Of a stretch of DNA of 51,750 nt, positions 2 to 13,953 are shown one piece after another. The stretch is from Burkholderiales bacterium UBA954 (GTDB taxonomy: Bacteria > Pseudomonadota > Gammaproteobacteria > Burkholderiales > Burkholderiaceae_A), in assembly GCA_002293155.1 (NCBI GenBank), contig DBCQ01000032.1:1-51750 (forward strand). The letters run 5' to 3'. Position 1 is the stretch's first letter; each line of letters begins with the position of its first letter. Under the pieces are notes generated by a model, which saw only the letters and a list, made by a program, of their open reading frames with translations, ran no database searches and was not told the DNA's origin. Position numbers and translations under genes: made by a program.

Positions 2-946
2 GCAATGATTCAGGGCGGGTTGCCATTTAATAAGAATTTCACGCCAGGCCATGAGTACATGGGAACCGTTGTGAAATTGGGCCCGGGTGTTGATGAATTC
101 AGAATTGGCGATCGGGTTGCTGTTGAAATCCATGCCGGCTGTGGCCGTTGCGAACGTTGTCGCGAAGGGATGTACACCTCCTGCCTCAACTATGGAAAAA
201 ACTACGGCGATGTAAATAAAGGTCATCGTGCCAATGGATTTACAACGGATGGCGGCTTTTTGGAATACGCCGTGAACAATGTCAATACACTCGTTCACGT
301 TGCTGACGATATGAGCGATGAAGAGGCGACCTTGATCGTGACTGCAGGTACTGCGATGTATGGCCTTGATGTCACCGCTGGCCTCATTGCAGGTCAATCG
401 GTGGTCGTGATGGGCCCCGGCCCGATCGGGCTAATGGGGGTTGGTGTCGCAAAGGCCCTTGGTGCGAGCGAAGTGATCCTGACTGGCACGCGAGACAACC
501 GTCTCGAGATCGGCAAGAAGCTTGGTGCGGATTACACCATCAATGTGACAAAAGAAGACGCAGTTCAGAAGGTTCGCGAGTACACCAATGGCGGCGCGCA
601 CTATGTGCTGGAGTGTTCTGGCGCCCCAAATGCAATTAATGATGCGGCCATGATGCTTCGTCGGGGCGGCCGAATTTGTTTGGCCGCATTTCCTGGGGAG
701 CCAACAACAGTCGATGTCGCAAACCTAGTCCGCAATAACATCTATATGTATGGAATTCGTGGCGAGGGACGCAGCGCAACCCACCGTGCCGCCTCACTGA
801 TGGCGCAGAAAAGGTTTCCTGCAAAACTTGTCCACACCCATACGTTTAACCTCGACGAGGTGCCTACCGCTCTGAAATATGCGCGCGAACGCATTGAGGA
901 TGCGATTAAGGTCGTCGTCAAGATGCCGCACGCTGAAGGTTATTAA
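2..946 (+). CDS. Zinc-dependent medium-chain alcohol dehydrogenase (5' end outside window)
   Basis: NAD(P)-dependent zinc alcohol/polyol dehydrogenase of the sorbitol/threonine dehydrogenase type. Visible are the GHEYMG motif with a zinc-ligand His and Glu, four structural-zinc cysteines in GCGRCERC and the following TSC, and a Rossmann nucleotide-binding motif (VMGPGPIGLMGVG). The reading frame is open to the window edge, and the N-terminal segment carrying the first catalytic-zinc cysteine is missing, so the ATG at base 5 is probably internal and the gene starts upstream of this window. The stop is 14 bp before the FAD-subunit gene, so it is likely the first visible gene of the catabolic operon. 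It would oxidise a secondary alcohol or polyol to a ketone. The family is certain; the substrate is not known. Confidence 0.9.
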   Translation, partial: AMIQGGLPFNKNFTPGHEYMGTVVKLGPGVDEFRIGDRVAVEIHAGCGRCERCREGMYTSCLNYGKNYGDVNKGHRANGFTTDGGFLEYAVNNVNTLVHVADDMSDEEATLIVTAGTAMYGLDVTAGLIAGQSVVVMGPGPIGLMGVGVAKALGASEVILTGTRDNRLEIGKKLGADYTINVTKEDAVQKVREYTNGGAHYVLECSGAPNAINDAAMMLRRGGRICLAAFPGEPTTVDVANLVRNNIYMYGIRGEGRSATHRAASLMAQKRFPAKLVHTHTFNLDEVPTALKYARERIEDAIKVVVKMPHAEGY

Positions 947-960
947 TTCGGAGATCACCG

Positions 961-1872
961 GTGCTCACCTATAACAGTTATCTAACGCCGCGTTCGCTTC
1001 CTGAGGCGCTGAATGTATTAATCAGCGCGAAGGGGTCGGTCGTGCGGCTGATTGCAGGCGGAACAGACATTCTGCCCTGGGCCCGTCAGGGGCGCGCCGG
1101 TGATGTACATCTTGATACGCTCATTGATATCTCATCCCTGAGTGAACTCAGGGGCGTTACCTTGCGAGACGGTACCCTGCATGTTGGCGCCGCGACGCCG
1201 ATTGCAGATTTTATTCGCAACCCGTTATTACGCGAGCATGCGCCCGTCCTGTCCCGCTGTGCAGTCTGGTTTGCGGATGACCAGATCCGCGCACAGGCCA
1301 CCGTTGGTGGAAATCTGGTGAATGCATCGCCGGCGGGTGATTCCCAGCCGGCATTGTTGTTGCATGATTGTCGTGCCACCTTATCCACGCTTCAAAATCA
1401 GAAGTTGGTTGAGCGGCAAATGCCGTTGTCTGAGTTCATTCTCGGCCCTAGCAAGACCGCATGCCAGCCCAATGAGGTGCTCGTTAAGATCGAAATGGAT
1501 TCTCTAAAAGGGTATGGGTGTGCATTCGAGAAGGTTGGCCACCGTCGTTCTCTCGTCATTTCAACGGTCTGTCTGGCGGTAGCGGTAAAGATCAACTGGT
1601 CTTCAAAGAAGATTGAGGACTTTCGTCTGGCGATCGGAGCTGTCGGGCCCGTGCCGACACGGATTACCGAAATCGAGAAGTTCTTGGTCGGCAAGGTTCC
1701 GGATGGCAAGCTCCTAAGAGATGCAGCCCAGATGGTGGCGGATTATGTTCGGTCGCGATCACGCCAGGAATACCGACGTGAAGTGCTGGTTAATTTTGTT
1801 GAGCGTGGGGCGGTTGAGGCATTGTCTCGCGCTGGTATTTCTATTGAGCGTGTCGCCAAGGAGCTTTCATGA
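961..1872 (+). CDS. Molybdenum hydroxylase, FAD-binding subunit (CoxM/HcrB-like)
   Basis: FAD subunit of a xanthine-dehydrogenase-family molybdenum hydroxylase, passing electrons from the [2Fe-2S] clusters to an external acceptor. It shows the two FAD-binding motifs of the family: AGGTDILPWARQGR near residue 32 and TVGGNLVNASPAGD near residue 117, followed by a CO-dehydrogenase-flavoprotein C-terminal domain. At 303 residues it has normal length (about 280-300). The start is GTG with GGAGATC just upstream. It lacks the extra 4Fe-4S loop found in the 4-hydroxybenzoyl-CoA reductase beta subunit, so that exact enzyme is less likely. The stop overlaps the next start (ATGA), which indicates translational coupling with the Fe-S/Mo gene. 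Confidence 0.9.
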   Translation: MLTYNSYLTPRSLPEALNVLISAKGSVVRLIAGGTDILPWARQGRAGDVHLDTLIDISSLSELRGVTLRDGTLHVGAATPIADFIRNPLLREHAPVLSRCAVWFADDQIRAQATVGGNLVNASPAGDSQPALLLHDCRATLSTLQNQKLVERQMPLSEFILGPSKTACQPNEVLVKIEMDSLKGYGCAFEKVGHRRSLVISTVCLAVAVKINWSSKKIEDFRLAIGAVGPVPTRITEIEKFLVGKVPDGKLLRDAAQMVADYVRSRSRQEYRREVLVNFVERGAVEALSRAGISIERVAKELS

Positions 1873-3779
1873 CTGATCTGTCCGAATTGAATCAGACGGG
1901 TGTGCATCACACGGTTGATATTTCAGCAACTGTGAATGGACGTAAAGTCTCTCGGAGGGTGCCGATTCACTATCGTGTGATCGATTTCGTGCGCGAAGAA
2001 TTAAAACTTACGGGCAATAAAGAAGGCTGCGGCGCAGGAGAGTGTGGGACCTGCTCAATGTTTGTTGACGGCGAGCTCATGAAGAGCTGCCTGCTGCCTG
2101 TTCAGAAAATTAATGGTCGTTCGCTTGAAACCGTCGAGAGCCTAGACCAACAAGGAACGATGTCGATCCTGCAGCAGGCCTTCCACAAGGCCGGCAGCAG
2201 TCAGTGTGGGTACTGTATTCCAGGCATGGTCATGGCGGCGACATCGCTCCTTCGGTCAAATCCAGATCCAACGATTGACCAGATTAAAGAGGGCCTTGGC
2301 GGCAATATCTGTCGGTGTACGGGATACCAGAAAATTCTTGACGCAGTCGAATTGGCGCGCGATGTGATCAATGGGAAGTCTGATTTATCGGTTCTCGAAG
2401 AGGAAAAAGCAGAGAGTTTTATCGGTCACAAGACTCGCCGCCTAGATACGCCGGGCAAGGTCACGGGCGCAATCAAGTATGCGGCGGATATGTGGATGCC
2501 CAATATGCTGCACATGGCGGTTCATCGTAGCCCCCATCCCTATGCACGGATTATTAAGATTGATGCCTCTGCTGCCCTCGCGATGGAGGGTGTGGAGGGT
2601 GTGATTACCGCCGATGATGTGCCGGGCATTGATAACTTCGGTGTTTTTATTGAAGATCAGCCCGTCATGGCACGCGGCGTCGTTCGTTATGTCGGCGAGG
2701 CCGTTGCGGCCGTCTCTGCTGAGACGGAGGAGATTGCGCATGAAGCCGCCAAAAAAATTGTCGTGCATTATGAAATCTTAAACGGTGTGTTTGATCCTTT
2801 TGAAGCAATGCGTGGCTCGGCACCACAGCTTCACGATTTTGCAGAAAATAATATCTGCAAACATACGAAGATTCGCAAGGGAGATGTCGACGCCGCACTC
2901 TTGAAGGCAGACCTCGTCGTGAAAGAGACCTACAAGACGGCCGCCGTGGAGCATGCCTATCTAGAACCTGAAGCAGGTCTCGCGCATGTGGAGGCCGACG
3001 GTACTGTCACGGTGGTTTCGCCAAGTCAGAACCTTACCCATCATCGTCACATGCTCGCAAAGATCATTGCAAAGCCGATCCACAAGGTCCGCATGATCAT
3101 GAGCACAGTTGGCGGCGGTTTCGGTGGCAAAGAAGACATGATCTATCAAGGCATGCTCGCCTTGATGACGATGAAAACCCGTCGTCCGGTACGTTATGTG
3201 TTTACCCGGGAGGAGAGTTTTGTCACCACTGCAAAGCGACACCCCTTTACGATTAACTACACCATGGGGTTAAGTGCTGACGGCAAGATTCTTGCGAGTA
3301 AGCTTGAGATGGTGGCCGATGGCGGCGCCTATGCGATGTCGAGCCCAGGCGTGATGAATAAGGCGGCGATTCTTGGGCCGGGACCCTACTCGATTCCTAA
3401 TGTCTGGGTGGATTCCATCGCGGTCTACACCAACAACACGCCGCGTGGTGCATTTAGGTCTTTTGGTGCTTTTCAGTCCGAGTTTGCAACCGAGAGCCAT
3501 CTTGATTTGTGCGCGAGCCGATTAGGAATGGATCCAGTCCAGCTCAGACTCAAGAACCTCATGACAGACGGGGCTCAGACCCACACGGGCCAGCAACTTG
3601 ATCAGGTGTTGGCGACGCGTTGTGTTGAAGAACTTATTCGGGCTGCGGGTTGGTCACCTGGCGTGCCGAATCGTCAAGGCCAAAATAAGCCTGCCCGCAC
3701 TGATCTTGGCCAGCCCTCAGGGGTTCGTGCGTCCTGCACCCTAGGGGCGAATCTCGATTCACCCCTAGACGCTGCGTAA
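1869..3779 (+). CDS. Fused [2Fe-2S] subunit and N-terminal half of the molybdopterin subunit
   Basis: Two parts normally found on separate chains are joined. Residues about 13-165 are the [2Fe-2S] subunit: a plant-ferredoxin domain with CGAGECGTC plus a later Cys, then a helical domain with CGYC and CRC. From about 190 come the aldehyde-oxidase hammerhead domain and the first molybdopterin-binding domain, with GGGFGGKE near residue 415 and FRSFGAFQ near residue 528. The protein then stops at 636 residues, before the second molybdopterin-binding domain, which is the next gene. The last 30 or so residues do not resemble the family and are encoded partly by a 28-nt hairpin. E. coli XdhD has the same fusion but is one chain of about 956 residues; 636 + 339 is close to that. 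The substrate is unknown. Confidence 0.88.
   Translation: MTDLSELNQTGVHHTVDISATVNGRKVSRRVPIHYRVIDFVREELKLTGNKEGCGAGECGTCSMFVDGELMKSCLLPVQKINGRSLETVESLDQQGTMSILQQAFHKAGSSQCGYCIPGMVMAATSLLRSNPDPTIDQIKEGLGGNICRCTGYQKILDAVELARDVINGKSDLSVLEEEKAESFIGHKTRRLDTPGKVTGAIKYAADMWMPNMLHMAVHRSPHPYARIIKIDASAALAMEGVEGVITADDVPGIDNFGVFIEDQPVMARGVVRYVGEAVAAVSAETEEIAHEAAKKIVVHYEILNGVFDPFEAMRGSAPQLHDFAENNICKHTKIRKGDVDAALLKADLVVKETYKTAAVEHAYLEPEAGLAHVEADGTVTVVSPSQNLTHHRHMLAKIIAKPIHKVRMIMSTVGGGFGGKEDMIYQGMLALMTMKTRRPVRYVFTREESFVTTAKRHPFTINYTMGLSADGKILASKLEMVADGGAYAMSSPGVMNKAAILGPGPYSIPNVWVDSIAVYTNNTPRGAFRSFGAFQSEFATESHLDLCASRLGMDPVQLRLKNLMTDGAQTHTGQQLDQVLATRCVEELIRAAGWSPGVPNRQGQNKPARTDLGQPSGVRASCTLGANLDSPLDAA
3741..3768 (+). 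repeat. Near-perfect inverted repeat at the split of the molybdopterin gene
   Basis: Arms at 3741-3753 and 3756-3768 are complementary at 12 of 13 positions (the mismatch is C3748 against A3761). An additional GCGT (3729-3732) and ACGC (3769-3772) could extend the base. It lies in the last codons of the fused Fe-S/Mo gene, 30 nt before the start codon of the C-terminal-half gene. There is no T-run after it, so it is unlikely to be an intrinsic terminator. It could be an mRNA-processing or stability element, or the scar of an inserted palindromic element. No second copy was noticed in this window. Confidence 0.75.
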
Positions 3780-3798
3780 ATGATCAGAGGAGATTGAC

Positions 3799-4818
3799 AT
3801 GAAACATATCGGACGAGGAATCGCATGTGGCTGGTACGGTATTGCGCGAACTGCAGCGATGGATCGGGCTGCGGTCTGGGTTGAGCTCGACGATGGTGGC
3901 AGCGTCAAAGTTGCGACAGGCGTTACCGAAATCGGCGAGGGGGTATTGACGGGTTTGTGTCAGATTGCAGCCCAGGAGATGGGGGTTCGCCCTGAAGACA
4001 TTGTGCTCGGTGATAACGATACCGCTCGGGTACCGGAGGCGGCACATGCTGGCGCAACGCGCATGACCTACATGATTGGTAATGCAACAGCCATTGCCTG
4101 TCGCGAGGCGTTTGGCAAATTCCGTGATGCGATGGGCGCCTACTGGCAGGTATCTCCGACGAGTATTCAGGCTTTCGCCGGCAATGTCTGGGTAGAGGGA
4201 AGCCCATCAAAAAAAATGACGATGGCCCATGCTGTTCATGTGCTGAAGAAGGAGCGTGGAGTCGTAGTTGTCGGCAGCGGATTGTTTACATCCCAACACA
4301 CGCCGCTGGACCCAGAAACCGGGCAGGCAACGCCTTGGCAGAGTTACGTATTTGGGGCCCAGATTGCAGAGGTGGAGGTGGATGACGACACGGGTGAGGT
4401 CCAGGTGCTTGGGGTGTGGGCCTCGCATGATGTGGGTCGGGTTGTGAACCCACAGCAGATTGAAGGCCAGATTGAGGGCTCCGTCGTGATGGGATTAGGC
4501 CATGCATTAATGGAGGATTACATCGAAGAGACGGGATTTACGAAGACGCCTGGCTTTGCGAAATATATCCTCCCAACGACGCTTGATATTCCGAAAATTA
4601 CATCGATCATTGTTGAAGAGCCTGATCCCAAAACTCCCTTAGGCGTTAAGGGGATTGGTGAGCCTGCCATGGTGCAAACGGCACCGGCCATTATTAACGC
4701 CATTTATGACGCGGTTGGCGTTCGAATGACTCAGCTGCCCGCAACACCTGAACGGGTGTTGGCGGCCTTGATGGCCAAGAAAGGCCAGCGGGAGCGGGCT
4801 CAGCCAAAGGCTGCGTGA
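3799..4818 (+). CDS. Molybdenum hydroxylase, C-terminal half of the molybdopterin subunit
   Basis: This is the second molybdopterin-binding domain of a xanthine-dehydrogenase-family large subunit, encoded on its own. It begins at the usual domain boundary (GRGIACGWYG), continues through EIGEGVLTGLCQIAAQE, and near residues 283-288 contains VKGIGEP, which holds the essential active-site glutamate. It therefore cannot be dispensable if the enzyme works. The frame differs from the upstream half. An in-frame stop lies at 3781, and a strong ribosome-binding site (AGAGGAGA, 3786-3793) precedes the ATG, so this looks like a real second gene rather than a sequencing frameshift. Nicotinate dehydrogenase of Eubacterium barkeri (NdhL/NdhM) is a known precedent for a molybdopterin subunit made of two chains. 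Confidence 0.88.
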   Translation: MKHIGRGIACGWYGIARTAAMDRAAVWVELDDGGSVKVATGVTEIGEGVLTGLCQIAAQEMGVRPEDIVLGDNDTARVPEAAHAGATRMTYMIGNATAIACREAFGKFRDAMGAYWQVSPTSIQAFAGNVWVEGSPSKKMTMAHAVHVLKKERGVVVVGSGLFTSQHTPLDPETGQATPWQSYVFGAQIAEVEVDDDTGEVQVLGVWASHDVGRVVNPQQIEGQIEGSVVMGLGHALMEDYIEETGFTKTPGFAKYILPTTLDIPKITSIIVEEPDPKTPLGVKGIGEPAMVQTAPAIINAIYDAVGVRMTQLPATPERVLAALMAKKGQRERAQPKAA

Positions 4819-4916: not shown

Positions 4917-6809
4917 TTGTCCATTGAAACAATCGCAACGACTCAGGGTATTGCACAACGTGCGGCCCTTGTTGCGCGACTGGGCGGTCTCGCCACGCGT
5001 GCGCAGACGGATGCATTTCCAGAGCAGGTGGACGTTACGTGTTCAGAAGGTCTTGTGTTGGGGCTCTTACGCCAAGGTGTCTCCAAGTTCTTAGTGATCT
5101 TTGGCCATGGATCAACCGATCTCGGAGAGGTGTTGCGGCTCTATGAGGCAGCAGGGGCTGTAAAGGTGTTCAATTTTCGTAATGAAGTAGAGATGGCCCA
5201 TACGGCGACTGCATTGTCATGGGCTTTTGCAGAGCCCTGCGCGGTTGTTACCTCCATCGGTCCCGGTGGCCTACAGGCCATGGCGGGGTCTTTAACAGCG
5301 GCCAGTAACGGCGTTGGGGTTTATCACATCTATGGCGATGAAACCACGCACGGTGAGGGCTACAACATGCAGCAGGTACCCAAGCCTCAGCAAGGTCTCT
5401 ATGGGCAGATCACGGGTTTAATGGGGCAATCCTATGTGTTGCATACGCCAATGGCCCTTCGAGATGCGATGCGCCGCGGCACACAGACTGTGCACCATCC
5501 GAGCAAGGCGGGACCATTTTTTCTGATGTTTCCCATTAACACGCAGCCTCAGGTTATCTCGAAGCTGCGGATCTCAAGCCTCCCTGACCGACTTAATTCA
5601 GCACCCACGATGGTTGCTGACTCGGCTACGTTGACGCAGGCCGCTAGCCTCTTAAAGTCTTCTTCAAAAGTAGCATTTAAGCTTGGCGGAGGGGCACGTC
5701 GTTTCGGCTCCGGAATTACAGAATTGGCTGAAAAAGTAGGTGCGGCTGTTGTCTTGTCGCCAGGCGCTAGCGGTGTATTGCCTGATCAGCATCCTCAGAA
5801 CATGCATGTGGGTGGCAGCAAAGGCTCAATCAGTGGCAACTTCGCTATGACTGAGGCCACAACCCTGGTCGTGATCGGTTCTCGTGCTGTCTGCCAGTCG
5901 GATTGTTCAGGGATTGGCTATCCGAATGTGACCCAGGTAGTCAACATCAACGCGGACCTCATCGATGCCCATCACTACAACCAGACGATTGCACTCTGCG
6001 GCGACATCGGTGCAGTGGTTGGCCAGTTAAACCAGATCATCGACCGTTCTGCTGCAACAGTCGGGGACAAGCAGGCCTGGCTAAGGGCTTGCCATCAAAA
6101 GAAAATGGAATGGCGGGGGTTCTTAACGGCACGCCAGGCGCAGGCACCACTTCATGATCCTGTCTGGGGAAAGCCCGTTCTTACGCAGCCTGCAGCCATT
6201 AAAGAGGTTTGTAATTTCGCAAAAGCGGTGGACGGCATCAAGTTTTTCGATGCGGGTGATGTACAGGCAAATGGATTTCAAACCGTTGAGGACGAGCACG
6301 TCGGCGACACCTTCACGGACACGGGCGCTTCTTATATGGGCTTCGCAACATCCGCTGTGACAGCGGCCGGGCTTGCTGATTCCCCACGATATGCCATCGC
6401 CTTAGTGGGCGATGGCTCTTTCATGATGAACCCGCAGGCACTGATCAGTGCGGTGGAGCATCGAGCCCATGCATTGATCGTTATTTTCGATAACCGCCGT
6501 ATGGCTGCAATTACTGGCCTTCAGCATGCACAGTATGGGCAAGAGTTTCGAACTAATGATTCGGTCGCTGTGGACTATGTCATGCTGGCAGGTAGCGTCC
6601 GGGGCGTGAACGCACTTTCTGGCGGAGTCAGTCGCGAGAGCTTTCGCGAAGCATTAAAGAGTGCTCATGCCTATAAAGGCTTGTCCGTCATCCATCTGCC
6701 AGTCTATGCGGGAACTCAACCCGAGGGCGGTCTTGGTGCTTATGGGTCTTGGAATGTCGGAAACTGGTGTGATCGGGTGCAAGAGATCTACCAGGCAACA
6801 AAAATTTAA
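4917..6809 (+). CDS. Thiamine-diphosphate-dependent enzyme, IolD / cyclohexanedione hydrolase type
   Basis: Three-domain ThDP enzyme. The pyrimidine-binding domain carries the activating glutamate in NEVEMAH near residue 91, and the diphosphate/Mg motif runs from GDGS near residue 498 to DN near residue 525. Phrases such as FGHGST and TSIGPGG, and the length of 630, resemble IolD (about 637 residues, hydrolytic opening of the inositol-derived cyclic diketone) more than acetolactate synthase, and no acetolactate synthase small subunit is nearby. Cyclohexane-1,2-dione hydrolase is another ThDP ring-opening enzyme to compare. The start is TTG with GGGAGA upstream; an out-of-frame ATG-free leader precedes it. 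It may open a ring or cleave an alpha-diketone in the cluster's pathway. A decarboxylase or carboligase role is not excluded. Confidence 0.8.
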   Translation: MSIETIATTQGIAQRAALVARLGGLATRAQTDAFPEQVDVTCSEGLVLGLLRQGVSKFLVIFGHGSTDLGEVLRLYEAAGAVKVFNFRNEVEMAHTATALSWAFAEPCAVVTSIGPGGLQAMAGSLTAASNGVGVYHIYGDETTHGEGYNMQQVPKPQQGLYGQITGLMGQSYVLHTPMALRDAMRRGTQTVHHPSKAGPFFLMFPINTQPQVISKLRISSLPDRLNSAPTMVADSATLTQAASLLKSSSKVAFKLGGGARRFGSGITELAEKVGAAVVLSPGASGVLPDQHPQNMHVGGSKGSISGNFAMTEATTLVVIGSRAVCQSDCSGIGYPNVTQVVNINADLIDAHHYNQTIALCGDIGAVVGQLNQIIDRSAATVGDKQAWLRACHQKKMEWRGFLTARQAQAPLHDPVWGKPVLTQPAAIKEVCNFAKAVDGIKFFDAGDVQANGFQTVEDEHVGDTFTDTGASYMGFATSAVTAAGLADSPRYAIALVGDGSFMMNPQALISAVEHRAHALIVIFDNRRMAAITGLQHAQYGQEFRTNDSVAVDYVMLAGSVRGVNALSGGVSRESFREALKSAHAYKGLSVIHLPVYAGTQPEGGLGAYGSWNVGNWCDRVQEIYQATKI

Positions 6810-6824: not shown

Positions 6825-8291
6825 ATGAAACGAGATGCGATTAACTTATATGATCGGTACGGCGTGTATATCGATCGCAGTTGGAAGCCAGCGGTATCTG
6901 GAAAAACAAAAGAGATTTTTAATCCCGCCAATGGTGAGCCGATTGGCTCAATCCCAGTTGTCGGGCAGGAGGACATCGCGCATGCGATCCGCTCTGCCAA
7001 GACAGGCTTTGCAACCTGGCGACAGACTGCACCCTGGAAGCGCGCAGAGATTCTGCGTGAGGCAGCCCGTTTAATCCGCGAGCGAAGTCCGGCGATTGCG
7101 GCAATGATGTCAACAGAGACGGGAAAACCAATTGCCCAGGCAGCCGGTGAGATCTCAGATGCTGCTGATCAGTTCGACTGGTATGCCGGAGAAACCCAGC
7201 GAATCTATGGCCAGACGATTGAGGCCCGCCTGCCTGACGTTCGAAGCTACGTTCGCTATGACCCCGTAGGCGTTGTTGCCGCGTTTTCAGCCTGGAATTT
7301 CCCAGCCCTATTGCCATCAAGAAAAATTGCAGCGGCGCTTGCGGCTGGGTGTGCGGTAATTGTGAAGCCCGCCGGTGAAGCAGCGGGTAGCGCGATGGCG
7401 ATTGTGCAAGCCTTGCACGATGCCAACCTGCCCGAAGGGGCCGTTTCGCTGCTGACTGGAGAGTCATCAACAATCTCTGAGGCCTTGTTGAGGTCATCGG
7501 TTGTTGCAAAGATTTCATTTACTGGCTCAACTGACGTTGGCAAGAAGCTACTGAAGCTCGCGGCTGAGGGCGTTAAGCGAATTTCAATGGAACTCGGCGG
7601 CCATGCGCCTGTGCTGATATTTGAGGATGCTGATCCGGAGTATGCCGGTGAGATGTGTGCACGATTTAAATTTAGGAATTGTGGACAAGTCTGTGCATCA
7701 CCCTCACGGTTCTATGTCCACGAATCGATCTATGAGGCGTTTTGCCGCCAGTTTGCAAAGACCGCCTCTAGCCTTAAGGTGGGACCTGGCCTGGATCCAG
7801 ATACGCAGGTTGGGCCGATGGCGAATGCCCGTGGGCTCGCGCATGCGCAGCACCTGATTGCAGACGCGGTTGATCAAGGAGCAACCCTCCTGTGTGGCGG
7901 TAAGCGCCCAGATTACATTCCAGGTGATAAAGGGTTTTATATTGAACCTACGGTTTTATCCAATGTGCCGGATTCGGCTGCCATTACCCAGCTAGAACCC
8001 TTTGCGCCGGTGGCTCCAATCACCGCGTTTAAGACCTTTGATGAGGCGATTGAAAAGGCAAACAGCACGCCTTACGGCCTTGCCTCTTACGTATTTACGC
8101 GGTCACTAAAGACAGCAACCCTAGCCAGTGAGCAGATCGAAGCCGGCATGGTGGGCGTCAACGACATGGCAATCGCGGCAGCCGAGATGCCATTTGGTGG
8201 CGTAAAAGAGAGTGGAATGGGGCGCGAAGGGGGTGCCTTTGGGATTCACGAGTATCTCGAGCCCAAGTATGTTCGGCTTAAACTGATGTAA
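6825..8291 (+). CDS. NAD(P)-dependent aldehyde dehydrogenase (semialdehyde dehydrogenase-like)
   Basis: Aldehyde dehydrogenase superfamily member of normal length (488 residues). The catalytic cysteine is in CGQVCASPSR (about residue 289), the general-base glutamate in MELGGHAP (about 256), the cofactor lysine in VIVKPAGEAAG and the NAD loop at FTGSTDVGK. It resembles succinate-semialdehyde and 2-oxoglutarate-semialdehyde dehydrogenases, which act on short omega-carboxy aldehydes. It begins 15 bp after the ThDP enzyme with an AAGGTAAG ribosome-binding site, so it is probably co-transcribed and could oxidise the aldehyde that enzyme releases. Confidence 0.88.
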   Translation: MKRDAINLYDRYGVYIDRSWKPAVSGKTKEIFNPANGEPIGSIPVVGQEDIAHAIRSAKTGFATWRQTAPWKRAEILREAARLIRERSPAIAAMMSTETGKPIAQAAGEISDAADQFDWYAGETQRIYGQTIEARLPDVRSYVRYDPVGVVAAFSAWNFPALLPSRKIAAALAAGCAVIVKPAGEAAGSAMAIVQALHDANLPEGAVSLLTGESSTISEALLRSSVVAKISFTGSTDVGKKLLKLAAEGVKRISMELGGHAPVLIFEDADPEYAGEMCARFKFRNCGQVCASPSRFYVHESIYEAFCRQFAKTASSLKVGPGLDPDTQVGPMANARGLAHAQHLIADAVDQGATLLCGGKRPDYIPGDKGFYIEPTVLSNVPDSAAITQLEPFAPVAPITAFKTFDEAIEKANSTPYGLASYVFTRSLKTATLASEQIEAGMVGVNDMAIAAAEMPFGGVKESGMGREGGAFGIHEYLEPKYVRLKLM

Positions 8292-8322: not shown

Positions 8323-10032
8323 ATGGCACAGGCCCAAGGCATTACCCGCGGACTCACGAATTATGGCGATCAAGGATTTGCAGCGTATTTGAGGCGGTCG
8401 TTTATTAAATCGATGGGCTATACCGACGAGAGTCTCGCCAAGCCAATTGTAGGTATTGCCTCTACCGCATCTGGATTTAATAATTGCCATCGGATGATGC
8501 CGGAGCTCGTCGATGCCGTGAAGCGCGGTGTTTTGGCAGCCGGTGGATTGCCGGTTGAGTTTCCGAGCATGTCTCTCGGAGAGGTCTTCTTGTCGCCCAC
8601 GAGCTTGATGTTTAGAAACCTCATGAGTATGGTCACCGAGGAGATGATCCGTGCGCAGCCGATGGATTCGGTCGTACTCATCGGCGGATGCGATAAGACA
8701 GTGCCCGCTCAGTTAATGGGCGCCGTATCGGCTAATCTGCCGGCTGTCCAGCTGGTGACTGGGCCGATGATGACCGGCCGCTATCAAGGCGAGCGCTTAG
8801 GGGCGTGTACGGACTGTCGACGATTCTGGGCGCAATATCGTGCGGGTAAGGTCTCAGATCAACAGATTAAAGAAATTGAAGGATCGCTCGCGACGACAGC
8901 GGGGACCTGTGCTGTTATGGGTACTGCGAGTACCATGGCCTGTATTGCTGAGGCCATTGGAATGATGTTGCCAGGAACAGCGGCGATACCAGCAGTCCAT
9001 GCGGATCGTTTGCGTGCGGCTGAGCGGTCGGGGACCTTGGCTGTAGCGCTCATCGGTAGACCAATTACCCCAAAACAGGTCATTACCGAGAAATCTGTTG
9101 AAAATGCCATGCGGGTATTGCTGGCACTAGGCGGATCAACGAATGCAATTATTCATCTCACCGCAATCGCAGGTCGAGCTGGCCATCGCATCTCGCTTAA
9201 GCGCCTCAATGAACTGAGCGACACCACGCCCGTGCTGGTCGATTTGAAGCCTACCGGCAGCCATTACATGGAGGATTTCTTTGCCGCAGGCGGCATGACC
9301 GCAGTGCTGCGTGAGCTCAGACCCCTTTTGCACCTTGACTGTATGACCATTACTGGCGAGACATTGGGCCAGCGGATTGAGGCTGAGAATGCATGTTGGG
9401 TCGATTCATCGGTGATTCGTCCGTTCGCCAATCCGATTGATCCGATGGGTGGACTCGTTGCGCTGTTTGGATCCTTAGCGCCAAACGGTGCAATTATGAA
9501 ACGTTCGGCAGCAGATAAAACTCTTTTTGAGTCCGAGGGTCGAGCGGTTGTATTTGAATCGCTTGAGGACCTCTCCAATCGGGTAGACGATCCAGACCTT
9601 GATATTCAGGCCAACGATTTTATGGTCTTGAAAAATGCAGGCCCGGTCAGTGGTACGGGTATGCCGGAGGCCGGCTATCTGCCGATCCCCAAGAAGCTGG
9701 CCGCAGCCGGCGTGAAGGATCTGGTACGTATCTCAGATGCCCGAATGAGCGGAACTGCGTACGGAACGATTGTGCTGCATGTCTCGCCCGAGGCAGCGGC
9801 AGGCGGTCCCTTGAGTCTCGTGAAGAATGGCGATCGAATCAAGATCAGTATTGCAAACAAACGGATCGATCTCCTCGTGTCGCCCGAAGAGCTTGCCTCG
9901 CGACAGGCGGAGTTTTTAGAGAAGTCGAAGAACCGTCAGCGGGCTACACGCGGTTATGAGGCGTTGTATGCAAACCATGTCCAGCAGGCTGAACTCGGCT
10001 GCGACTTTGATTTTCTTGTGGCGGACAAATGA
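8323..10032 (+). CDS. IlvD/Edd-family dehydratase (sugar-acid dehydratase-like)
   Basis: Fe-S-dependent dehydratase that removes water from a 2,3-dihydroxy acid to give a 2-oxo acid. The three cluster cysteines are at FNNCHR (about residue 55), GGCDKT (about 123) and GTCAVMGTAS (about 195). The length of 569 fits the L-arabinonate/sugar-acid dehydratase branch, which also carries the NNCHRMMPEL-type N-terminus, better than housekeeping dihydroxy-acid dehydratase. It is the last + strand gene of the catabolic cluster, 31 bp after the aldehyde dehydrogenase. This suggests a polyhydroxylated acid among the pathway intermediates. Confidence 0.85.
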   Translation: MAQAQGITRGLTNYGDQGFAAYLRRSFIKSMGYTDESLAKPIVGIASTASGFNNCHRMMPELVDAVKRGVLAAGGLPVEFPSMSLGEVFLSPTSLMFRNLMSMVTEEMIRAQPMDSVVLIGGCDKTVPAQLMGAVSANLPAVQLVTGPMMTGRYQGERLGACTDCRRFWAQYRAGKVSDQQIKEIEGSLATTAGTCAVMGTASTMACIAEAIGMMLPGTAAIPAVHADRLRAAERSGTLAVALIGRPITPKQVITEKSVENAMRVLLALGGSTNAIIHLTAIAGRAGHRISLKRLNELSDTTPVLVDLKPTGSHYMEDFFAAGGMTAVLRELRPLLHLDCMTITGETLGQRIEAENACWVDSSVIRPFANPIDPMGGLVALFGSLAPNGAIMKRSAADKTLFESEGRAVVFESLEDLSNRVDDPDLDIQANDFMVLKNAGPVSGTGMPEAGYLPIPKKLAAAGVKDLVRISDARMSGTAYGTIVLHVSPEAAAGGPLSLVKNGDRIKISIANKRIDLLVSPEELASRQAEFLEKSKNRQRATRGYEALYANHVQQAELGCDFDFLVADK

Positions 10033-11027: not shown

Positions 11028-12227
11028 CTACTTGCCCGTCAGTGGGTGCTTCATAAAGCCATCGCGGGTTTGCGGAAGTTTCGCGCCAAGCAGAGCCCCC
11101 GCCACCTGTGTGCGAAGAATCTGCGCGGTACCACCCGCAATTGTGAACATCCGAGCATCTCTGACGTGTCTTTCCATCGGAAGTTCACGGGAGTAACCCG
11201 AGGACCCATAGAGTTGTAGTGCATCGTTCGTGACTTTAATCGCCGTTTCTGCCGCGTAGATTTTCGCCTGCGCTGCCTGTTTGACGTCCGGGAAACTGCC
11301 CAATGGCACATTGGCCGCCCGATGAATCAGAAGGCGTGAGGCATCAAGCTGAATCGACATATCGGCAAGCATCCATTGCAGGCCCTGGAATTCGGCAATG
11401 GGACGGCCAAACTGACGGCGCTGTTTTACATAGTCAAGCGCTTCGTCAAAGGCCCCCTGCGCAATTCCAAGGGCAACCGTACCCGCGCCAACACGCTGTG
11501 CGTTATAAGCGTTCATCAGCCCGGAGAATCCTTTTCGAAGATCGCCCATGGGCTTTAAGAGCATGGATTCGTGAACCTCAAGATCTTTGAAGACGACGTG
11601 GGTCTCGGGAATACCACGGACGCCCATGGCGGGTGTGCGCTCTGCAATAATGAGTCCGGGGTGCTGGTCATCGTCACGAATTACGATAAACCCGCCAATT
11701 CCTTGCTCTACACCCTGGTCGAAGACCCGGGCAAAAATAAGGTGCAGGCGGGATACGCCGCCCCCGGTAATCCAGTACTTATGGCCATTGAGTCGGTAGG
11801 TGTCGCCATGCTTATCAGCCCGGGTTGTCATTTCACTGGCCGCACTTCCCGCATTGGGCTCCGAGATACAGATCGCCGGTTTGTCCCCCTCCAGTACGCA
11901 GGCTGCTGCAAGTTTTTTCTGAGGCTCGCTACCGTAGGCCATGATCGCACCAATCGCCCCCATATTTGCCTCGACCGTAATACGGCCCATCGTTGCGCAG
12001 GCCTTGGCCATTTCTTCAATGACCAAGACAGTCTCCAAATAACCTAGGCCCTGACCACCGTAGGCCTTCGGGATGGTCATTCCCATGAAGCCAGCAGCAT
12101 TTAATTTTTTAATATTCTGCCAAGGGTAGGCCTCGGTGGCATCAATCTCTGCGGCCATGGGTGCGAATTCTTGCTGTGCAAGCGTTCTCGCCTTTAACTG
12201 CAAAGCGGTTTGATTGGTGGTGAGCAT
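11028..12227 (-). CDS. Acyl-CoA dehydrogenase without the usual catalytic glutamate
   Basis: FAD-dependent acyl-CoA dehydrogenase, 399 residues, with the N-terminal helical, middle beta (SEPNAGSAASEMTTRA; KYWITGGG) and C-terminal domains in normal order. The signature RQFGRPIAEFQGLQWMLADM is present. At the site where most family members have the catalytic base (EGT), this protein reads AGGT. At the alternative site used by isovaleryl-CoA dehydrogenase it has Gln before Arg (AQRVGAG). The base must lie elsewhere, or the reaction differs. It is 9 bp after the CoA-transferase gene and is expected to act on the thioester that enzyme makes. Confidence 0.88.
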   Translation of the reverse strand: MLTTNQTALQLKARTLAQQEFAPMAAEIDATEAYPWQNIKKLNAAGFMGMTIPKAYGGQGLGYLETVLVIEEMAKACATMGRITVEANMGAIGAIMAYGSEPQKKLAAACVLEGDKPAICISEPNAGSAASEMTTRADKHGDTYRLNGHKYWITGGGVSRLHLIFARVFDQGVEQGIGGFIVIRDDDQHPGLIIAERTPAMGVRGIPETHVVFKDLEVHESMLLKPMGDLRKGFSGLMNAYNAQRVGAGTVALGIAQGAFDEALDYVKQRRQFGRPIAEFQGLQWMLADMSIQLDASRLLIHRAANVPLGSFPDVKQAAQAKIYAAETAIKVTNDALQLYGSSGYSRELPMERHVRDARMFTIAGGTAQILRTQVAGALLGAKLPQTRDGFMKHPLTGK

Positions 12228-12236
12228 ATGCTTATC

Positions 12237-13433
12237 TCATTTTGAGTGTCGCCCTAACCAATCATGAAGAATCTCTTTCTCATGCTGGTTTCGGACAGGG
12301 GGGGCGAATCGATATTGAACCGGGGTTGCGGAGAGCTTTAATGGGTTTGCAATAACACTTACTTTTCCTGACTGTGCAATTGGGTGGTCAAGCGCGACCT
12401 CAGCCTGACGGTGACGAATCTGCGGATCTGCGAAGACTTGCTCGAGGGTATTCACTGGGCCGCACGGTACCCCCACTTTTTCAAACACAGAGACCCAGTG
12501 GTCTCGGGTTTGTTGGCGCAGGGCTTCTGATATTTTCTCTATCAAACGATCTCGGTTCTTAACCCTTGCGACATTGGTTGCGTAATCGGGATCGTCTGCG
12601 ACCCCTGTCATTGCGCTGTATTCACAGAATTTTCGAAACTGATTGTCGTTACCGACCGCGATGATGATCGGGAAATCAGCAGTTGGAAAGACCTGATAAG
12701 GGACGATATTGGGATGGCCGTTTCCCAGCCGTTGTGGGTTTTTCCGTGATGTTAGGTAACTCGTGCCTGCGTTAATTAACCAGGAGACCTGAGTATCAAG
12801 CAACGCGAGGTCAATGTACTGGCCTTCTCCAGTCTGATCTCGGTGTCGAAGTGCTGCCAGGATCCCAACCGTCGCATACATTCCGGTCATCACATCGGCA
12901 ATCCCAACGCCAACTTTCATGGGGTCGCCGTCCGGAGCGCCTGTGACACTCATAATGCCGCCCATTGCCTGAATTAAAAAATCATAGCCGGCGCGATTCG
13001 CGTAGGGTCCGGTCTGTCCGAAGCCGGTGATTGAACAGTACACGAGCTTTGGGTAGAGGCTTTTAATTTGTGCGTAGGCTAAGCCATAGGCCTGCAGACC
13101 ACCGACTTTATAGTTTTCAATAAAGACATCGGCCTTCGCAAGAAGCGCATGAATGAGCGCCTGTCCCTCTGCGGTGGTAATGTCGATCTCAATCGAGCGC
13201 TTATTGCGATTTGCGCAGAGGTAATAGGCGCTCTCAGAGCTTGGCCTGCCCTCTTGGTCAGGCACGAACGGTGGCCCCCATTTTCGAGTGTCATCCCCTT
13301 CACCCGGTTTTTCAATCTTGACCACGTCTGCACCGAGATCTCCGAGCAGCTGTGTCGCAGAGGGTCCTGCCAGAATCCGGGAGAGATCGAGTACCCGCAA
13401 TCCAGCGAGCGCCATGGGTGTATGAGCAGTCAC
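12237..13433 (-). CDS. Class III (CaiB/BaiF) CoA-transferase
   Basis: Formyl-CoA-transferase-family enzyme that moves CoA between carboxylic acids. The signature N-terminus LAGLRVLDLSRILAGP, the ADVFIENYKVGGL segment and GYDFLIQAMGG, with the Asp expected to form the acyl-enzyme anhydride, are all present. The frame is open upstream to a TTG at 13490 that overlaps moaC by 14 bp and has an AGGTAG before it. A GTG at 13433 and an ATG at 13415 fit family N-termini better; 13433 is chosen here, with the TTG a real alternative. Together with the downstream acyl-CoA dehydrogenase it suggests that the catabolic pathway ends in CoA thioesters. Confidence 0.85.
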   Translation of the reverse strand: MTAHTPMALAGLRVLDLSRILAGPSATQLLGDLGADVVKIEKPGEGDDTRKWGPPFVPDQEGRPSSESAYYLCANRNKRSIEIDITTAEGQALIHALLAKADVFIENYKVGGLQAYGLAYAQIKSLYPKLVYCSITGFGQTGPYANRAGYDFLIQAMGGIMSVTGAPDGDPMKVGVGIADVMTGMYATVGILAALRHRDQTGEGQYIDLALLDTQVSWLINAGTSYLTSRKNPQRLGNGHPNIVPYQVFPTADFPIIIAVGNDNQFRKFCEYSAMTGVADDPDYATNVARVKNRDRLIEKISEALRQQTRDHWVSVFEKVGVPCGPVNTLEQVFADPQIRHRQAEVALDHPIAQSGKVSVIANPLKLSATPVQYRFAPPVRNQHEKEILHDWLGRHSK

Positions 13434-13476
13434 GGAGGGCCCAGCGTCGAACACGCTGCAGGAGAGTCTTTCATCA

Positions 13477-13953
13477 CTAAGGCCTGACAAAACTACCTGA
13501 TTTTCCGCCGTGTTTTTCCAACAGTTGGATATCGGTTAGCGTCATGGCACGGTCAATCGCTTTGCACATGTCATAAATGGTCAGTAGCCCGACACTGACT
13601 GCAGTGAGGGCCTCCATCTCGACGCCTGTTTTCCCGGTAACTTCCACGGTGGCTGTGCATCGAACACTCGGTGGACTTTCAATTGTTTCGAAGTGAACCG
13701 CTACCCGGCTGAGCATTAAGGGGTGGCAAAGCGGGATCAAATCAGATGTTTTTTTTGCCGATTGAATTGCAGCGATCCGGGCAATGCCGATGACATCCCC
13801 TTTTTTCGCATCACCCTGACGGATGTGGGCTAGGGTCTCGGGCGCCATCTGAATAACTCCGCTTGCAATCGCAACCCGATGGGTGTCGGTTTTCTCGGCG
13901 ACATTGACCATGTGGGCCTGGCCTGAGGAATCAAAGTGGGACAATTGAGTCAT
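13477..13953 (-). CDS. moaC: Cyclic pyranopterin monophosphate synthase (MoaC)
   Basis: Second step of molybdenum-cofactor synthesis: it makes cyclic pyranopterin monophosphate from the MoaA product. The family core is clear ([39 protein letters not shown] near the end). The start at 13953 ([11 protein letters not shown]) gives 158 residues, the usual length. The frame continues 16 codons further, but that would run into the divergent protease gene. A GGGTCT lies just before the ATG. The cofactor is needed by the molybdenum hydroxylase of this window, though moaC beside an M48 protease is probably a conserved core arrangement rather than part of the catabolic island. Confidence 0.93.

Follow-up and report, generated by a model that had tools for sequence, protein, structure and literature searches.

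The window analysed here, a 51,750-nucleotide stretch of contig DBCQ01000032.1 from Burkholderiales bacterium UBA954 (assembly GCA_002293155.1), encodes a molybdenum hydroxylase of the xanthine oxidase family in which the iron-sulfur (Fe-S) part is fused to the hammerhead and the first molybdenum-cofactor domain (Mo1), and the second molybdenum-cofactor domain (Mo2) is a gene of its own. We find that this split is a real, conserved re-partitioning under selection in a family of related loci. Judging from the sequence, it is very likely that the product is a functional hydroxylase with a two-chain Mo subunit, the chains closing around one molybdopterin cofactor. A broader reading, in which our confidence is about even, is that the family is probably an undescribed hydroxylase clade whose active site was cut independently of nicotinate dehydrogenase, whose Fe-S part was joined to the first half, and whose arrangement became fixed in a patchy, probably transferred operon for an undescribed sugar acid, polyol or cyclitol pathway.

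A hydroxylase encoded by two Mo genes

The hydroxylase genes and the elements at their junction are as follows.

961..1872, + strand: FAD subunit, 303 amino acids (Pfam FAD_binding_5 and CO_deh_flav_C)
1869..3779, + strand: first half, 636 amino acids, with two [2Fe-2S] domains, hammerhead, MoCoBD_1 and a conserved C-terminal tail (list of open reading frames (ORFs), Pfam, homologues)
3666..3776, + strand: codons of the C-terminal tail (residues 600-636), equivalent to the linker that joins Mo1 and Mo2 in the fused relative P0076
3786..3792, + strand: ribosome-binding site AGAGGAG of the second half (read from the sequence)
3799..4818, + strand: second half, 339 amino acids, MoCoBD_2 with the catalytic Glu288 of GIGEP (ORF list, Pfam, homologues)

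A first-pass annotation of this DNA had described the Fe-S fusion to hammerhead and Mo1, a separate Mo2 gene that is read in a different frame and has a ribosome-binding site to itself, and retention of all expected motifs by both halves, and each of these points holds. In the first half, Fer2_2, the Ald_Xan_dh_C hammerhead and MoCoBD_1 (model positions 2-244 of 244) score above the Pfam cut-offs. Fer2 (20.4 bits, cut-off 21) and Fer2_3 (23.5 bits, cut-off 27) fall slightly short; all four cysteines of the first Fe-S domain (Fer2) are present despite this score. The second half, queried from position 3784, matches MoCoBD_2 over 23-283 of 283 with 232 bits. The eight Fe-S cysteines (54, 59, 62, 74, 113, 116, 148 and 150) are identical in 29 of 29 aligned sequences, and the GIGEP glutamate (second-half residue 288) in 28 of 28 aligned sequences, the window included in both sets. 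The lysine and glutamate of GGGFGGKE, likewise identical throughout the alignment, sit in the first half and the GIGEP glutamate in the second. Over the two chains, the features that mark the xanthine oxidase family are complete: two [2Fe-2S] domains, hammerhead, MoCoBD_1, MoCoBD_2 and the glutamate. The family's FAD subunit is also present, its ORF overlapping the first-half start codon by 4 nucleotides (ATGA).

The junction itself is orderly. The halves are separated by 19 nucleotides and lie in different frames, AGAGGAG precedes the second-half ATG by 6 nucleotides, and similar purine-rich stretches precede the second half in five relatives (L008-L012). The second-half frame is closed by a TGA at 3781-3783 and by two further stops upstream, so a single frameshift would not yield one continuous frame, and the first half's conserved tail stays in its own frame until about 10 residues short of the stop.

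Recurrence of the split and selection on the halves

The same split recurs widely among homologues. Protein searches gave 7,687 of 7,996 candidates at E <= 0.001 for the first half and 5,853 of 7,998 for the second, and the best 120 matches of each were listed. Among these, 119 first-half matches are 629-671 amino acids long and lack MoCoBD_2, the remaining one being the continuous P0076, and all 120 second-half matches are free-standing proteins of 318-353 amino acids. Two proteins marked as the window's own (P0001 and P0121) differ from it at 4 and 2 residues, with identical lengths. At the level of loci, all ten family members compared (the window, L008-L012, L035, L076, L128 and L129) carry the split, one of them on a finished Phaeobacter plasmid. 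How the two genes are framed relative to each other varies, with an offset of 1 in five loci, 0 with an intervening stop in one, and 2 in four, the second-half starts of L035, L076 and L128 being approximate because the scripted pick lies inside the annotated or likely gene. L128 lies on the minus strand and was treated in flipped coordinates. For the four pairs of relatives with unsaturated synonymous divergence (dS), the ratio of nonsynonymous to synonymous divergence (dN/dS) is 0.098-0.143 in first halves, some of which start at the first possible codon and so include codons upstream of the likely start, and 0.069-0.082 in second halves. On these ratios, both halves are under purifying selection among relatives.

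A single gene broken by mutation or assembly error, with the halves as its remnants, is highly improbable against this background. Its attractions are that the window is a draft-genome contig, that one continuous relative exists, and that breakage occurs at other loci (the Mo2 part of L105 lies over two overlapping frames, and the L013 copy is in pieces). It would have to accommodate ten of ten family loci with the same split and differing relative frames, the finished plasmid among them, as well as low dN/dS among relatives, a conserved tail ahead of the stop, a ribosome-binding site and three stops in the second-half frame just upstream. Decay or assembly error is ruled out for the family by the homologue lengths, the finished plasmid and the ten split loci. 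Since distant bacteria have this layout too, next to the same genes, a functioning design is very probable and a broken gene is not. The earlier proposal of a functional re-partitioning is therefore upheld by the split loci, the conserved operon and the low dN/dS among relatives, and recurrence of the split, which the first-pass annotation had proposed to look for, is found in the ten family loci. A close relative with an intact single gene, named there as contrary evidence, occurs once among the best 120 first-half matches (P0076, 981 amino acids).

That relative is informative about the place of the cut. P0076 is continuous, shares 73% identity, lies on a contig of 4336 bases and retains the tail as a linker; it is either a natural re-fusion or a sequencing error. 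All 118 split homologues tested (P0001 and P0076 being left aside) have a tail motif, WxxG...R...RxD, after the Mo1 domain, and the tail (residues 585-636) evolves faster than the remainder (dN 0.48-1.07), which in these alignments means a kept motif among otherwise loose positions. In an AlphaFold2 model of P0076 the matching stretch, 602-642, has a predicted local distance difference test score (pLDDT) below 50. In this model of a rare natural fusion the cut falls in a low-confidence linker that is probably flexible.

Several observations weigh against the reading of a conserved, working two-chain enzyme in the source organism. Between the window and its relatives, dS is mostly saturated, with no estimate in seven of nine first-half and nine of nine second-half pairs (dN is 0.22-0.43 and 0.12-0.34, respectively), and with dS saturated, relaxed selection on the window copy alone may still apply. 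The P0076 model has an overall pLDDT of 73.5 with 187 of 981 residues below 50, so the linker is not its sole weak stretch, and the first half modelled alone from 29 close sequences is poor (pLDDT 64.9). Lastly, neither the 6 other genomes of this genus nor 25 others of the family give a match at E <= 1e-100, from which it follows that the gene is accessory in the source organism.

Distribution

Beyond the source organism, the family has a wide but patchy distribution. In 84,980 species genomes, a pattern-based scan that by design yields a lower bound gave at least seven relatives, six of them at 72-75% identity, from Polaromonas, Comamonadaceae, Burkholderiaceae and another beta-proteobacterial metagenome-assembled genome, Caballeronia hypogeia and Candidatus Burkholderia pumila. 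Among plasmids, Phaeobacter piscinae pS26_248 carries a first half at 58% identity, with others at 35-40% (best 60 of 1,289 records), and is the only second-half match at >=60% among 1,198 records. Close second-half copies (62-65%) occur in 3 of 385 sampled genomes from the class of genome G709 and in 1 of 397 other genomes in the phylum sample. In the order sample, 1 of 398 other genomes passes E 1e-125 with the first half, and its locus (L095) is fully fused. The operon was probably acquired by the source organism; its GC content is unremarkable, at 54% in the first 10 kb and 53-57% along the window.

One member of the family, L129, is a complete operon in a 1.2-Mb single-contig genome (G1113) from the class of G709, presumably Alphaproteobacteria, a seemingly unusual cargo for such a small genome.

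Descent of the split

To assign layouts, the window's domains were used to score the ORFs of retrieved loci, and 57 taxa were placed in trees; these were picked by similarity to the window, so that layout counts are not frequencies. Ten taxa have layout I (FeS-Mo1 / Mo2), 23 have layout II (FeS-Mo1-Mo2 fused), nine have layout III (FeS / Mo1 / Mo2, as in the nicotinate dehydrogenase NdhFSLM and including its structure 3hrd), and 15 have layout IV (FeS / Mo1-Mo2). Loci omitted were L013 (first half in pieces), L105 (broken), L107 (weak match), L139 (no Fe-S gene in 4 kb), L097 (cut by a contig end) and L133, which is shortened by a contig end though it shows layout II. Layout I forms a single clade (100/100) with no other layout inside, and is one clade also on the short Fe-S domain (99.8/100).

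With what this clade shares its split is a matter of weighing. Inheritance from an ancestor common with NdhL/NdhM, in which the Mo subunit was already two chains and to which the Fe-S fusion was added later, would account for the identical split point and for NdhL or NdhM being the top PDB hit for each half, and grouping the family with Eubacterium barkeri NdhLM (3hrd) alone is not rejected by the approximately unbiased (AU) test (p = 0.13). We nevertheless think inheritance unlikely. Grouping with all layout III taxa is rejected (p = 0.004 and 5e-5), as is grouping with layout III minus 3hrd (p = 0.0009 and 0.005) or with L096, the closest-scoring NdhLM-layout locus (p = 0.005); the Fe-S domain also rejects grouping with layout III (p = 0.018). 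Moreover, three loci with a contiguous Mo subunit (L130, L135 and L138) stand as near to the family as NdhLM or nearer in the maximum-likelihood tree, with weak support, and P0076 taken whole matches the aldehyde oxidoreductase Mop best. The AU tests thus make a split in common with the sampled NdhLM-layout loci improbable, while one in common with E. barkeri itself may still apply.

We lean slightly towards a separate origin, in which a fused or contiguous Mo subunit was cut independently in this family and reached the same boundary by convergence. Besides rejecting the groupings with NdhLM-layout loci, the tests allow grouping with three layout IV loci (p = 0.46 and 0.56) and with the fused selenium-dependent xanthine dehydrogenase (p = 0.105). 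On the Fe-S domain, grouping with layout II is allowed (p = 0.73) and attained a better likelihood than the free search, and grouping with layout IV is allowed as well (p = 0.10). Against a separate origin stand the weakly supported sister group of layout I (36.6/73) and a weak rejection of grouping with layout II on the Mo domains (AU p = 0.035), which the Shimodaira-Hasegawa test does not share.

The operon and its possible function

The hydroxylase genes lie among the following neighbours, all in the same operon.

5..946, + strand: Zn-dependent medium-chain dehydrogenase, the first operon gene, truncated by the contig end (Pfam ADH_zinc_N, ADH_N)
4917..6809, + strand: thiamine pyrophosphate (TPP)-dependent enzyme, distantly related to IolD and acetolactate synthase
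6825..8291, + strand: aldehyde dehydrogenase (ALDH), succinate-semialdehyde-dehydrogenase-like (models shown all below cut-offs)
8323..10032, + strand: IlvD/Edd-family dehydratase, a relative of L-arabinonate dehydratase (NCBIfam PRK06131 above cut-off; PDB match)

Where the flanks reach, the ten family loci keep one order: dehydrogenase, FAD, FeS-Mo1, Mo2, sometimes TctC or TctCBA of the tripartite tricarboxylate transporter, then TPP enzyme, ALDH and IlvD/Edd. The dehydrogenase is found in nine loci, FAD in ten, the TPP enzyme and ALDH in nine each, and IlvD/Edd in eight. L009, which begins inside the FAD gene, holds only FAD, FeS-Mo1 and Mo2 and is too short for other neighbours, and L008 has no IlvD/Edd match in the 434 bases between its ALDH gene and the end of the locus. 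A Tct gene stands between Mo2 and the TPP gene in L008, L010, L035, L076, L128 and L129, and none stands there in the window, L011 or L012. The dehydrogenase and FAD genes of L012 are about 1 kb apart, and TctA lies upstream. In L035, L076, L128 and L129 the operon follows a homologue of the IclR regulator of Phaeobacter. In Caballeronia the split is likewise found within this operon.

Curated families give little guidance to the substrate. For the Mo, FAD, TPP, ALDH and dehydrogenase proteins, every NCBIfam model shown (the best 25 for TPP and ALDH) stays below its cut-off, and the IlvD/Edd protein reaches one subfamily cut-off (PRK06131). From the neighbours, namely a polyol/threonine-dehydrogenase-like dehydrogenase, an IolD-like TPP enzyme, a succinate-semialdehyde-dehydrogenase-like ALDH, a sugar-acid-type dehydratase and, in relatives, the Tct transporter, we tentatively suggest that the operon degrades a sugar acid, polyol or cyclitol and that the Mo enzyme oxidises an aldehyde intermediate. 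As a weak inference, the enzyme itself oxidises an aldehyde or hydroxylates a polar substrate. A heterocycle may be the substrate instead; the neighbouring genes give no hint of nicotinate breakdown.

Elsewhere in the window, at 11028-13490 on the - strand, a 3-sulfinopropanoyl-CoA desulfinase gene (above its NCBIfam cut-off) adjoins a CaiB-type CoA-transferase gene (below cut-off), a pair that perhaps serves the use of 3-sulfinopropionate.

The junction sequence and broken loci

Two candidate roles for the junction DNA were set aside. A repeat or mobile element was rejected, as the source genome (79% complete) shows no further copy of the 146-bp junction, one 18-base match being at chance level (E 0.38). 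The last codons of the first half contain a strong hairpin at 3741-3768 (+ strand; CTAGGGG-GAAT / ATTC-CCCCTAG) with z scores of -3.3 over 43 nucleotides and -2.1 over 76. It was discarded as an expression switch, since folding is not unusual at this position in six relatives (z -0.5 to +1.0) or over the 156 nucleotides around the junction (z -0.87). Rfam gave a single sub-threshold match, taken as chance.

A second Mo hydroxylase locus in the same genome, L105 (1287-5197; contig C31 of G000), comprises an Fe-S and FAD ORF, a 457-amino-acid Mo1 ORF and an Mo2 part in two overlapping frames of 141 and 226 amino acids. It looks, from its reading frames, to have been broken by mutation or assembly error, in contrast to the clean split in the window. 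Candidatus Burkholderia pumila is a leaf-nodule symbiont, and its locus L013, on a 4369-base contig, has the first half in pieces over three ORFs, like a decayed gene.

Proposed mechanism and broader meaning

In the arrangement that we propose, the first chain would carry two [2Fe-2S] clusters, the hammerhead and the first Mo-cofactor domain, with the Fe-S domain covalently tied to that domain, and the second chain would contribute the second Mo-cofactor domain and the base-catalyst glutamate. The two chains, encoded in tandem with the FAD subunit and presumably co-transcribed with the other operon genes, would close non-covalently round one cofactor as NdhL and NdhM do. The assembly would probably be a dimer of FAD/FeS-Mo1/Mo2 trimers, with electrons predicted to pass from Mo to Fe-S I, then to Fe-S II and on to FAD.

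Our findings show that molybdenum hydroxylases can exchange their chain boundaries in more combinations than are commonly described. The border between the two Mo domains, moreover, was probably cut on more than one occasion at an identical position. Having fused and split relatives that can be compared, the family offers a natural test of building a molybdenum-cofactor site from two chains that meet around the cofactor. It also marks a conserved operon whose substrate is not nameable from curated families.

Comparison with known systems

Single elements of this layout have counterparts in characterised enzymes. The closest is NdhFSLM of Eubacterium barkeri (PDB 3hrd), in which the Mo subunit is cut into L and M at the same residue; the likeness to this split, pointed out in the first-pass annotation, is exact, with second-half residues 1-327 aligning to NdhM 1-328. 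The division of the nicotinate dehydrogenase Mo subunit into two peptides is stated in the available excerpt of PMC5746545. In NdhFSLM, however, NdhS is a separate chain (3hrd_D) and NdhL has GGGFGGKL, whereas in this family the Fe-S part is fused N-terminal to the L-equivalent and the motif is GGGFGGKE. The NdhLM-layout loci (L044 on a Salinigranum plasmid, L077-L082 and L096) share the boundary and likewise keep the Fe-S gene separate. What sets the family apart from NdhLM is that the Fe-S part is fused to the first half.

The fusion has its own parallels. Selenium-dependent xanthine dehydrogenase (TIGR03311; xdh of E. faecalis) also joins Fe-S to the Mo part with the domains in equal order, but in one continuous chain of about 850 amino acids against two chains here. 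Of the NCBIfam models, TIGR03311 scores best on the first half (512 bits, with 125 for the second; cut-off 830, the halves being scored alone), and no selD-type gene is present among 17 annotated features around the Phaeobacter copy. The fused FAD + FeS-Mo1-Mo2 enzymes of Sulfitobacter and Fuscovulum plasmids resemble the family in their separate FAD subunit and Fe-S-Mo1 fusion, but have Mo1-Mo2 in one chain, about 40% identity and another operon. Three Rhodobacterales plasmid loci (L039, L040 and L045) with fused FeS-Mo1-Mo2 and FAD all have a UPF0280 gene nearby, and the hydroxylases of L040 and L045 adjoin a gene annotated as 6-hydroxynicotinate reductase; the three represent another conserved operon.

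Other members of the superfamily are more distant. The alpha subunit of 4-hydroxybenzoyl-CoA reductase (TIGR03194; PDB 1rm6), the best NCBIfam model for the second half at 213 bits, far below its cut-off of 994.55, is contiguous, unlike the Mo subunit here. Desulfovibrio Mop (PDB 1sij/1vlb and 1dgj) is not known to have an FAD subunit, is a single chain, and carries GGTFGYKF where this family has GGGFGGKE; against the Mop-type model NF045668 the halves, scored alone, reach 394 and 170 bits (cut-off 1100). The first-pass annotation had called the combined Fe-S fusion and Mo split unfamiliar. Among the titles, abstract openings and excerpts obtained by searching open-licence PubMed Central papers, none describes an enzyme with both, and the excerpts of PMC5746545, PMC11448449, PMC8305194 and PMC2276186 do not describe it, so that part stands as far as those texts go; in sequence databases, by contrast, the layout is recurrent and extends well beyond the source genome.
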